Shown here: positions 46,864 through 49,827 of the stretch, in pieces
How the letters are laid out: each line of letters starts with the position of its first letter
Numbering within the stretch: position 1 is the stretch's first letter
DNA from: Rhodobacter sp.
GTDB taxonomy: Bacteria; Pseudomonadota; Alphaproteobacteria; Rhodobacterales; Rhodobacteraceae
Assembly (NCBI GenBank): GCA_020250445.1
Contig: JADCEF010000008.1
Coordinates: 36,697-100,696 of the forward strand
Reading direction: 5' to 3'
DNA: 64,000 bases
The notes under the pieces: model-generated
The model's input: only the letters and a program-made list of their open reading frames with translations
Told to the model about the DNA's origin: nothing
Databases searched by the model: none
Translations under genes and position numbers: made by a program

Positions 46864-47793
46864 ATGACAACCGATCGCATTCTTCCCGGCGTCGCGCTGA
46901 TGCTGGCCTTCTGCATGCTGGCCCCGCTGCTGGACGTGTCATCGAAACTTGCCGCCGCGACCATCCCGGTCGGGCAGATCACGGCGGCGCGGTTCCTGGT
47001 GCAGGGGGCCCTGATGCTGCCCGTGGCGCTGATGATGCGGCTGGCCTGGGCGGTACCGCCCAAGATGGCGGGCCTGATCCTGTTGCGCGCGATCTTCCTG
47101 ATCCTGTCGACCTACTGTTTTGTCGCCGCCATCCGGGTCATGCCCATTGCCGATACGCTGGCGATCACCTTTGTCGAACCCTTCATCCTGCTGCTGCTGG
47201 GGCGCCTGCTGTTCGGGGATGAGGTGGGGCCGCGCCGCATCGCGGCCAGCCTGGTGGGGTTTGGCGGCGCGCTTCTGGTGATCCAGCCGTCGCTGGCGGT
47301 GTTTGGCGAGGTGGCCCTGTACCCGCTGGGCACGGCCTTTTTCTTTGCCTTTTACATGCTGATCACCCGGTTCATCTCGACCGGGGTGCATCCGGTGACG
47401 ATGCAGATGCACACCTCGATCGCGGGCACGCTGATCTGCATTCCGGGCATGGTGCTGCTGGACGGCAGCGCCATCCCCTCACTTGATCCGGTGATGCCGC
47501 AGGGCATCGCCTGGCTGTGGCTGTTCGGGGTGGGGTTCTGGGCGGCGGTCAGCCATATCTGCATGACCTATGCGCTGAAATTCGCGCCCTCGGCCACGCT
47601 GGCACCGCTGCATTATGTTGAAATCGTCGCGGCTGTGGCGCTGGGCTATGCCGTGTTCGGCGATTTTCCCAATGCAAAGACCTGGGCCGGAATTGCCGTG
47701 ATCGTCGCGTCCGGCCTGTACATCATCCACCGCGAGCGCATCGTGGCCCGCAGCCGCCGCGCAACGGCGGCCACGGCGGAACCCCTGCATTGA
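46864..47793 (+). CDS. DMT/EamA family transporter
   Basis: Ten hydrophobic segments; C-terminal TWAGIAVIVASGLYIIHRERIVARS. Confidence 0.93.
   Translation: MTTDRILPGVALMLAFCMLAPLLDVSSKLAAATIPVGQITAARFLVQGALMLPVALMMRLAWAVPPKMAGLILLRAIFLILSTYCFVAAIRVMPIADTLAITFVEPFILLLLGRLLFGDEVGPRRIAASLVGFGGALLVIQPSLAVFGEVALYPLGTAFFFAFYMLITRFISTGVHPVTMQMHTSIAGTLICIPGMVLLDGSAIPSLDPVMPQGIAWLWLFGVGFWAAVSHICMTYALKFAPSATLAPLHYVEIVAAVALGYAVFGDFPNAKTWAGIAVIVASGLYIIHRERIVARSRRATAATAEPLH
47679..47755 (+). repeat. 77-bp direct repeat copy 1 (inside the 3' end of the EamA gene)
   Basis: 75/77 identical to 48970-49046. Confidence 0.9.
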
Positions 47794-48141
47794 CCAGCGC
47801 GCCCCGCGCCGCTGCCGCCGGATATCGCACCGCCCTGGCCCTTCACCGGGCTTGCGCATCACCGCCATGGGGCCATCCGAACCGCCCCGCGCGCCCCGAA
47901 ACCCGACCGCATGGGGCGGTCGCAACAGACCCGGTCATCCCGGTCCGGGCCCATATCCTGCGGGTGATCGGCGCAACATCTCGACGGCTGTCAAGACCGT
48001 GACTGTCATCGGCAAGACCAGGGCGTGAACAGGAAGATCAGCAGGCTTGCCGGGCAATGCGGGCACAATCACAGGGGCGGCCCGGCAGACCCTGATCCAG
48101 CCGGAATGCGCGGCGTCGGGACGGCTGCGTTGAAACTGCTG

Positions 48142-48792
48142 TCAGTTGCCAGAAAAACGATACAACAATTGTACACTTATCCTGCCGTCATTGTTGGCCC
48201 CAATCCCGGTCGTATCTGCCGTTCTGCATGCGGTCATGGCCTGATCATAGGATGTACTCCCAGACACCCCTGCAAAGGTTACGAAAGGCATGCCTTCATA
48301 GGCGGCTCCTTGAACGTAGCCGTGCATAACAACGTTCCGTCCGACGGTATTGGATGCCAACAGGCGCGTGCATATCTCAAATGAAAGGTTGGTCAAAAGC
48401 ACCGAAACCTGAAACACTCCCCCGCTCGGGCCCGTAATGAATCCAGCCGACAACTGAATGAAACCGCCCCATGGGTTCCGGATTTGTTCATTGGCGGGCT
48501 TTGACGTGTCAAGCCAGGCTCCAGGGACGGCCCCTCTGGTGACGAGGTATCCGCTTAAGGCTTCGTAGGCGGGCAACACCCTGCTCTCCGCTGCGACAGC
48601 TTGTGTTTCCGAGATCAGAGATGACACCATCGAAACAGTGGCATTCATCCTGGACGCTGTTGATGCCTGCTGGTAAAATACCAGCCCGCCCACGATCAGC
48701 GCCAGTGCGATCGCGATGTACAGCACGGCCTCGATCAGCGTCACGCCCCGCCGCCGCCGGGCCCGTTGAGGCACCTTGAGGGTCCCTGTCAC
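48142..48792 (-). CDS. orphan type IV pilin-like protein (PilS/type IVb-like)
   Basis: RRRRG^VTLIEAVLYIAIALALIVGGLVFYQQASTASRMNATVSMVSSLISETQAV prepilin signal; GTG start at VTGTLKV preferred, ORF extends to 48876. Confidence 0.72.
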   Translation of the reverse strand: MTGTLKVPQRARRRRGVTLIEAVLYIAIALALIVGGLVFYQQASTASRMNATVSMVSSLISETQAVAAESRVLPAYEALSGYLVTRGAVPGAWLDTSKPANEQIRNPWGGFIQLSAGFITGPSGGVFQVSVLLTNLSFEICTRLLASNTVGRNVVMHGYVQGAAYEGMPFVTFAGVSGSTSYDQAMTACRTADTTGIGANNDGRISVQLLYRFSGN

Positions 48793-48969
48793 TTCATCAC
48801 CTTTGCGCGCAAAACGCCCTGCGGCCACCACCGGCACGGCCCGGAACCACATGTCACCCATGCGCGATCGAACCACGGAACGGTAAAGTTAGTCTTCTTT
48901 CGATCCGCAAGCAAGCCATGTGCCGCAGGCGGATGTCCGGTGCCCCGCCAGCGGCCCCGGCCCCGCGAT

Positions 48970-49046
48970 GACCCGGGCCGGAATTGCCGTGATCGTCGCG
49001 TCCGGCCTGTACATCATCCACCGCGAACGCATCGTGGCCCGCAGCC
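48970..49046 (+). repeat. 77-bp direct repeat copy 2 (orphan EamA 3'-end fragment)
   Basis: Encodes RAGIAVIVASGLYIIHRERIVARS out of context; 75/77 identical to 47679-47755. Confidence 0.9.
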
Positions 49047-49208
49047 CTGCAGGCAAAGCCCCGGCCAGGGATTCCATCCGTGTCAGACGAAAACCGCACA
49101 GGGGATGACGACCATCCGGTCGGCCTGATTGCCGTGCAAGTTCCTTGTTCAACCCCCGGCGGATAGGCAAGGCTTGCGGACCGGCGGTTCGGCTGCCATT
49201 CCTGCCGC

Positions 49209-49715
49209 ATGACGCTTGGCCCGCTGCTTGACGCACCCGCCCTGATCCAGCTGCATGTCGCGGCGGCCTTGCCTTCGGTCGTGCTTGGGCCGGTGGCGAT
49301 CCTGCGGCGCAGCCGCGACATCGTGCATCGCGTGGTCGGTCGTGCCTGGGTGGTCAGCATGGCAGTCACCGCCGGGTCTTCTTTCTGGATCAGTGAGACG
49401 CCGATGATCGGGACGTTTTCGATCATCCACATCCTGTCGGTTGTCACCCTTGCCAGTTTGGTCGGTGCCCTTCGCGCCATCCGTTCGGGCGCTGTGGCAA
49501 GGCACGGGGCGATAATGCGCGCGCTTTATGCCCAGGCGCTGATGCTGGCCGGGGCCTTTACCTTTCTTCCGGGGCGGCGGATGAGCGAGGCTGTCTTTCC
49601 CGGCACACCATGGCTGGGTCTTGCGGCAATGCTGGCCGTGGCCGCCGCTGCGGTCTGGCTGCTTTGGCGCGATGGCCGCAGAAACCCCCTTCCCTTCACC
49701 GGGGGGCTTCGCTAG
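49209..49715 (+). CDS. DUF2306 domain membrane protein
   Basis: IQLHVAAALPSVVLGPVAILRRSRDIVHRVVGRAWVVSMAVTAGSSFWI. Confidence 0.88.
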   Translation: MTLGPLLDAPALIQLHVAAALPSVVLGPVAILRRSRDIVHRVVGRAWVVSMAVTAGSSFWISETPMIGTFSIIHILSVVTLASLVGALRAIRSGAVARHGAIMRALYAQALMLAGAFTFLPGRRMSEAVFPGTPWLGLAAMLAVAAAAVWLLWRDGRRNPLPFTGGLR

Positions 49716-49740: not shown

Positions 49741-49827
49741 GCGGATGTGGCGGAATTGGTAGACGCGCAGCGTTGAGGTCGCTGTGGGGTAACTCCCGTG
49801 AAGGTTCGAGTCCTTTCATCCGCACCA
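49741..49827 (+). tRNA. tRNA-Leu (anticodon GAG)
   Basis: gcggatg...catccgc acceptor stem, anticodon arm agcg-ttGAGgt-cgct, ggttcgagtcc T arm, encoded CCA. Confidence 0.96.

Follow-up and report, generated by a model that had tools for sequence, protein, structure and literature searches.

Orphan type IVb pilin genes in Rhodobacter carry fragments of neighboring genes and appear to be mosaics

How does the 3′-end of an intact transporter gene come to lie on both sides of a single, oppositely oriented pilin gene? The question is posed by a 64,000-nt stretch of a Rhodobacter sp. draft genome (the window; contig JADCEF010000008.1 of assembly GCA_020250445.1, hereafter G000). A sequence-only reading of this stretch had reported a 77-bp direct repeat of the 3′-end of an EamA transporter gene around a lower-GC type IV pilin gene. 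It offered two explanations, an element that integrates into the gene's 3′-end and carries a replacement end (attL/attR) or a duplication-insertion. Our comparison with related genomes favors, with a probability of roughly 0.8, a history in which a pilin gene arrived at this site, units containing it were amplified in tandem, the front and back parts of the pilins were exchanged, and the 77-mer is what remains of a truncated next unit.

Results

The repeat and its surroundings

Realignment reproduced the repeat as described: 47679-47755 and 48970-49046 lie in the same orientation and differ at 2 of 77 bases (47683 T/C and 47736 G/A), and the exact core is 52 bp at its longest, for which about 2e-30 pairs would be expected by chance in the window. 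The fuller repeat spans 82 bp at 95% identity, with starts 1291 bp apart. The features of the locus are as follows.

46864-47793 (+): EamA-family transporter gene, intact, donor of the duplicated 3′-end (Pfam PF00892, E 9.9e-24)
47674-47755 (+): EamA 3′-end, copy 1, native, from the repeat comparison
47794-48141 (no strand): spacer from the EamA stop to the pilin stop, within the repeating unit
48108-48141 (−): conserved block right after the pilin stop codons, TGACArCA...CCGTCCCGACgCCG, from a listing of 15 units
48142-48792 (−): type IVb pilin gene W, 216 aa, GTG start
~48720 down to 48142 (−): variable body of pilin W
48721-48773 (−): breakpoint interval in pilin W, covering signal-peptide and first mature codons
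48774-48964 (−): pilin upstream block shared with array pilin E
48965-49046 (+): EamA 3′ fragment, copy 2, probably the beginning of a further tandem unit, truncated at 49046
49047-49144 (no strand): sequence ~78% similar to an intergenic stretch elsewhere in G000 and in two relatives
49209-49715 (+): DUF2306 gene; sequence of the DUF2306 locus starts at ~49161
49741-49827: tRNA-Leu(GAG), intact

The description of the insert also held. The pilin has a G+C content of 0.53-0.60, compared with 0.63-0.69 in its surroundings, and is the only gene in the 1.3 kb between the copies, on the antisense strand. No integrase or recombinase was recognized among the open reading frames of 44-52.5 kb. The tRNA-Leu is where it was said to be, ~700 bp past the second copy, and shows no sign of involvement; we considered it as an integration target and rejected it, as it is intact, distant, and has no repeat matching it. 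The DUF2306 locus sits elsewhere in the relative G004. The stretch at 49047-49144 has its counterpart on contig C33 of G000 (L011:4570-4680) and others in G003 (C18) and G004 (C27), and may be a small dispersed repeat.

Pilin W is a type IVb pilin

The reading frame of W opens as far upstream as 48876, and the GTG at 48792 is its likely start because related frames converge there. The protein has a class-III prepilin signal (RRRG^VTLIEAVLYIA...), in which a G^xxxxE processing motif leads into a long hydrophobic N-terminal helix; the motif, RRRG^VTLIEAVLYIAIALALIVGG in W, is carried by the other copies with small changes. The Bundlin profile (PF05307) matches W above its cut-off (E 1e-7), and among 23 pilin copies 8 match Bundlin and 5 match PilS. 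With the AF2 model of W (pLDDT 81.5, pTM 0.72), Foldseek returned the CofA type IVb pilus (9iuf) as its top match, at a modest score (E 8.7e-4, TM 0.58-0.60), and nothing but CofA-like type IVb pilins stood above noise. By signal, profile, and fold, pilin W is a type IVb (PilS/bundlin-like) pilin.

The upstream block of W contains a Shine-Dalgarno sequence (AAGGTGA) and a TTG...TAT/TAA-like motif that is conserved as judged by eye; a promoter scan of the pilin strand gave no sigma-70 match. The block after the pilin stop codons, ~35 bp long, is a candidate 3′ homology for exchange of the variable domain. A single weak G4 motif at 48974 (−), with loops of up to 8, is one of five such motifs on that strand of the window and is unremarkable in sequence this rich in GC.

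The pilin family of W is rare, being present in 12 of 298 sampled genomes of the taxonomic family. Two further genera of that taxonomic family each have six to nine such pilins spread over many contigs (G214: L103, L114, L117, L120, L123; G030: L104, L115, L118, L121, L124). As origins for the orphan pilin, plasmids and phages were both considered and set aside: PLSDB gave no match to it, and no related pilin was confirmed among 2.9 million viral contigs. PilN-type secretins are common on plasmids, but at less than 60% identity.

Pilins lie in arrays together with fragments of their neighbors

Within the genus, W-family pilins occur in G000 (3.48 Mb in 125 contigs, 97.2% complete), G003, G004, and G005, all drafts, the last three apparently MAGs. 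G000 has eight copies, seven of which are open frames and one of which (pilin B) is truncated. An overlap of exactly 124 bp connects its contigs C5 and C66, and the join that we infer from this yields an array of pilins in direct repeat. The first half runs TPK, pilin A, truncated pilin B, a second TPK 3′-end, a short EamA fragment, and pilin C; the second half runs a lipB 5′ fragment, a short EamA fragment, pilin D, a 130-bp EamA fragment, pilin E, and lipB. In G005, a single contig holds TPK, an EamA remnant, pilin1, a lipB fragment, pilin2, an EamA fragment, and pilin3.

A search for other copies of the repeat, which the sequence-only reading had recommended, led to EamA 3′ fragments preceding other pilins both in G000 and in G005. 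Those in front of pilins C, D, and E of the G000 array range from ~25 to 130 bp and have one common junction; the fragment before E, at 130 bp and 96% identity, includes the stop codon. Because the fragments share a start point in EamA (...GGGCCGGAATTGCCG) and are all joined to the same pilin upstream block, we take them to be of single origin. TPK 3′ and lipB 5′ fragments occur in the arrays in the same manner as those of EamA, indicating that nothing sets the EamA end apart as a site. The native gene at 47692-47793 and the fragment before pilin E (L009:1332-1461) share a 102-bp exact match, which suggests conversion between gene and fragment.

The spacer between EamA and W links these fragments to the window. 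It is 93% identical at the equivalent site of G003 and 82% identical in the G005 array, where it lies between pilin2 and an EamA fragment. The G005 unit (L058) consists of the EamA fragment at 9138-9009, a W-type spacer at 9037-8658, and the W-like pilin2 (75.9% over 28-244); a G000 unit (L009) combines the EamA fragment at 1461-1332 with a different spacer and pilin D. The conservation of the spacer together with a W-like pilin and an EamA fragment in the G005 array indicates that EamA 3′-end, spacer, and pilin form a tandem unit of ~1.3 kb, and hence that the 77-mer of the window opens a further unit, which breaks off at 49046. This join is seen in G000 only: the contigs of G005 end there, and in G003 an IS lies upstream of the pilin.

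In G003, a 415-bp intergenic stretch beside rpsT (L049:6253-6667) is duplicated at 92% identity (L048:5889-6302), upstream of the lipB-proximal pilin near rimO, and is another neighbor fragment copied with a pilin.

The ancestral site is an overlap of two convergent genes

Relatives that lack the pilin, a comparison also called for by the earlier reading, have a single EamA 3′-end. In G001, G002, and G006, members of the same genus in which we searched for and found no pilin of W's family, EamA and TPK converge and their coding ends overlap by 52, 43, and 52 bp, respectively, constituting an empty site. The order in G001 and G006 is rpiA-mntH-SDH-EamA / TPK-(gene of ~690 aa)-purA-secG-pyrG, the beginning of which is visible on the G002 contig. 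All four pilin-bearing genomes have this block split between EamA and TPK, and pilins lie at either broken end. In G005, TPK still ends within an antisense remnant of EamA, which is the ancestral arrangement, and a whole EamA gene lies elsewhere. We conclude that the arrival of the pilin duplicated the EamA 3′-end and that both overlapping genes were preserved.

Gene orders around the pilins (REARRANGEMENT) differ between genomes. TPK is followed by pilins and lipB in G000 and G005 (a lipB fragment in G005); in G003 and G004 the orders are TPK-pilin-rpsT and rimO-pilin-lipB. These gene-order breakpoints are marked by pilins. Lone pilins, located beside fucU, beside rimO, beside TPK in G003, and on contig C67 of G005, are not flanked by direct repeats, which is evidence against a unit that transposes or integrates.

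Pilin fronts and bodies have separate histories

Among 15 pilins, identity of the upstream region and identity of the body were uncorrelated (Mantel r 0.10, p 0.13), and the nearest upstream relative differed from the nearest body relative in all 15. Pilin W and its counterpart at the same locus in G003 (G003_W) have bodies that are 91% identical in amino acids, mostly 90-100% per 60-nt window, whereas the informative upstream stretch is only 50-67% identical (56% by a figure that includes some IS sequence). W and array pilin E are 97% (95-98%) identical in the upstream block and only 25% identical in the protein body. Pilin E and the lipB-proximal pilin of G003 (G003_L) are 98% identical in the body and 53% upstream. 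In G005, pilin2 has an upstream region 95% identical to that of pilin C of G000, with a body identity of 32%, and its body is 75% identical to that of W.

The segment upstream of G003_W had been considered a native flank and proved to be an ISAs1-like insertion, a multi-copy sequence identified from its protein, whose edge lies 171 bp before the G^VT codon. The chimera test of W against G003_W is therefore confined to the 171 bp inside it, of which ~100 bp are informative. The cases of E with G003_L and of G005 pilin2 are independent of this insertion. Single-breakpoint chimera tests gave p ≤ 5e-5, the permutation limit, with breakpoints falling between −26 and +87 nt relative to the G^VT codon; the interval in W, 48721-48773, was obtained at this same limit. 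Pilin W is, as judged from sequence comparison, a chimera.

The ISAs1-like transposase gene also occurs on contig C67 of G000 (L137:4658-5287), at 1-164 of G003 contig C64, and on G004 contigs C4, C19, C22, and C65; several copies in G003 and G004 lie at contig ends, and one is the copy just upstream of G003_W.

Discussion

The comparisons raise the question of how a pilin could acquire both a piece of its neighbor and an upstream region with a history different from its own. We propose that a type IVb pilin settled at the overlapping tails of EamA and TPK. Its arrival would have duplicated ~130 bp of the EamA 3′-end while sparing both neighbors, as the one junction shared by the fragments suggests. 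The unit of EamA 3′-end, spacer, and pilin was then amplified in tandem, as the arrays of G000 and G005 show. Recombination in the conserved upstream and signal-peptide block would have swapped the front and back halves of pilins, yielding the chimeras described above; the exchange was probably RecA-dependent homologous recombination. Recombination between pilin blocks would also have tied pilin loci to different neighbors in different genomes, consistent with the gene orders, and the 77-mer would be a remnant of one such rearrangement that fused a pilin upstream block to the DUF2306 locus. The likely outcome is a set of alternative pilins that each have an upstream region of their own and that combine variable, interchangeable surface-exposed domains with a constant assembly helix.

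The front/back mosaicism may have come mainly from whole pilin alleles imported from related strains, by transformation or in gene-transfer-agent packets, and recombining at the conserved block. Gene-transfer agents are common in Rhodobacterales, and pilin bodies match those at other loci of other genomes, as in the 75% identity of G005 pilin2 to W. Nevertheless, the closest match found to the upstream block of W is that of E in the same genome, and the EamA fragment before E has its 102-bp exact match in G000's own EamA gene. Both suggest intragenomic exchange, and we consider import unlikely to have been the main route.

Whether the pilins still serve a pilus bears on a further explanation, in which the orphan genes are what is left, now in decay, of a type IVb pilus that has been lost, and their recombination is incidental. 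The G000 assembly gave no match to T2SSE, T2SSF, or the PilN secretin, and no pilus-assembly genes were found in it; they were also looked for and not found in G003. A single missing contig could explain this in G000, or the pilus could have been lost. The truncation of pilin B also fits decay. By contrast, 7 of the 8 G000 copies are open frames, upstream blocks and signal sequences are conserved, and dN/dS stays below 1 in the pilin pairs compared (0.26-0.72), as expected of rapid change under constraint and not of decay. Moreover, pil clusters are complete in two relatives that have the same arrays: G005 encodes an R64-like type IVb cluster (TcpQ, PilN secretin, PilO, T2SSE, T2SSF, and PilS, by Pfam), with orthologues in G004. 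Decay is thus, in our estimation, an unlikely explanation for the family. The prepilin peptidase profile (PF01478) was uninformative, as it was also missed in genomes with a full pil cluster. A similar cluster, read by eye, and dispersed pilins are present in G030, of another genus. In the R64-like clusters of G005 (L126, contig C122), G004 (L127, contig C6), and G030 (L129, contig C56), a large PilV-like protein (~520-680 aa) is encoded divergently from pilS.

An artifact of assembly, with an EamA-pilin contig falsely joined to a DUF2306 contig or pilins made chimeric through the repeated 5′ block, is improbable. It draws on the draft state of G000, on 95% identity of the 5′ block between loci over 385 bp, and on contigs of relatives that end in pilin repeats. 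However, the longest exact match between the pilin region of the window and the array is the 102 bp inside the EamA end, which is shorter than the 124-bp contig overlap (suggesting the assembly k-mer) and makes a repeat-induced false join unlikely. Independent assemblies also contain arrays, fragments, and chimeras of the same type, and specific orders recur between them: TPK-pilin-lipB fragment-pilin in both G000 and G005, and TPK-pilin-rpsT in both G003 and G004.

Of the two explanations first offered, duplication-insertion at the EamA 3′-end is supported, whereas a small, possibly non-autonomous element inserted site-specifically with a replacement end, the 77-mers being attL and attR, is very improbable: it shares with known gene-3′-end integrative elements the direct repeat around an insert, and it would account for the lower-GC gene and the empty sites, but empty sites are equally expected under tandem duplication, the supposed att repeat recurs before other pilins of G000 at inconstant length, spacer and EamA fragment belong to a tandem unit, lipB and TPK fragments behave similarly, lone pilins lack flanking repeats, no recombinase was recognized among the open reading frames of 44-52.5 kb, the insert's upstream block and body differ in history, and the EamA 3′-end looks native (99.7% aa identity to the G003 gene).

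The history of amplification and exchange that we favor has partial parallels in known systems. In Neisseria pilE/pilS variation, a constant front and variable back recombine in shared blocks (PMC3547852), and G4 and Sma/Cla elements are needed for or enhance the process (PMC4023411). The Rhodobacter pilins likewise combine a constant N-terminal region with a variable C-terminal body in several copies per genome, and their mosaics have crossovers in conserved blocks beside the variable part. They differ in that Neisseria uses truncated silent cassettes and one expression locus, whereas most copies here are full-length and each of these comes with an upstream block and a signal peptide. They are also type IVb pilins, are scattered over several loci, occur in units carrying fragments of neighboring genes, and, with one weak motif, apparently have no distinctive G4 trigger. 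The family resembles pilE/pilS variation but is not a member of it.

R64/TP114-type thin pili (PilL-V) also use PilS/bundlin-like type IVb pilins, and the relatives carry an R64-like cluster. In the IncI shufflons, a recombinase inverts 3′ segments of the minor pilin gene pilV (PMC9045228). Variation there is in the pilV 3′-end, whereas here it affects several PilS-like genes, with no recombinase among the open reading frames of 44-52.5 kb, no inverted recombination sites at the locus, and array pilins in direct repeat. The closeness to ordinary tandem gene amplification lies in the unit joins, which run from the pilin 5′ region to the 3′- or 5′-end of a neighbor and leave partial neighbor copies between units; here, however, units were later dispersed and recombined between distant loci. 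Our literature search found papers on Neisseria variation and IncI shufflons and none on pilin arrays of Rhodobacterales.

We tentatively suggest that the family constitutes an alphaproteobacterial pilin diversification system, analogous to gonococcal variation and built from dispersed full-length type IVb genes with their own upstream regions. The upstream/signal-peptide and post-stop blocks would serve as homology arms, rearrangements at pilin loci would be a by-product, and recognition by phages or partner cells may be the driving force. Most of what is known of recombinational variation in pilins comes from host-adapted pathogens such as Neisseria. If the proposal is correct, it would suggest that phages or neighboring cells, besides immune systems, can drive pilin variation. 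It would also identify a surface-protein gene family that marks the breakpoints of chromosome rearrangements, with the fragments of neighboring genes serving as tags from which the history of copying may be read.
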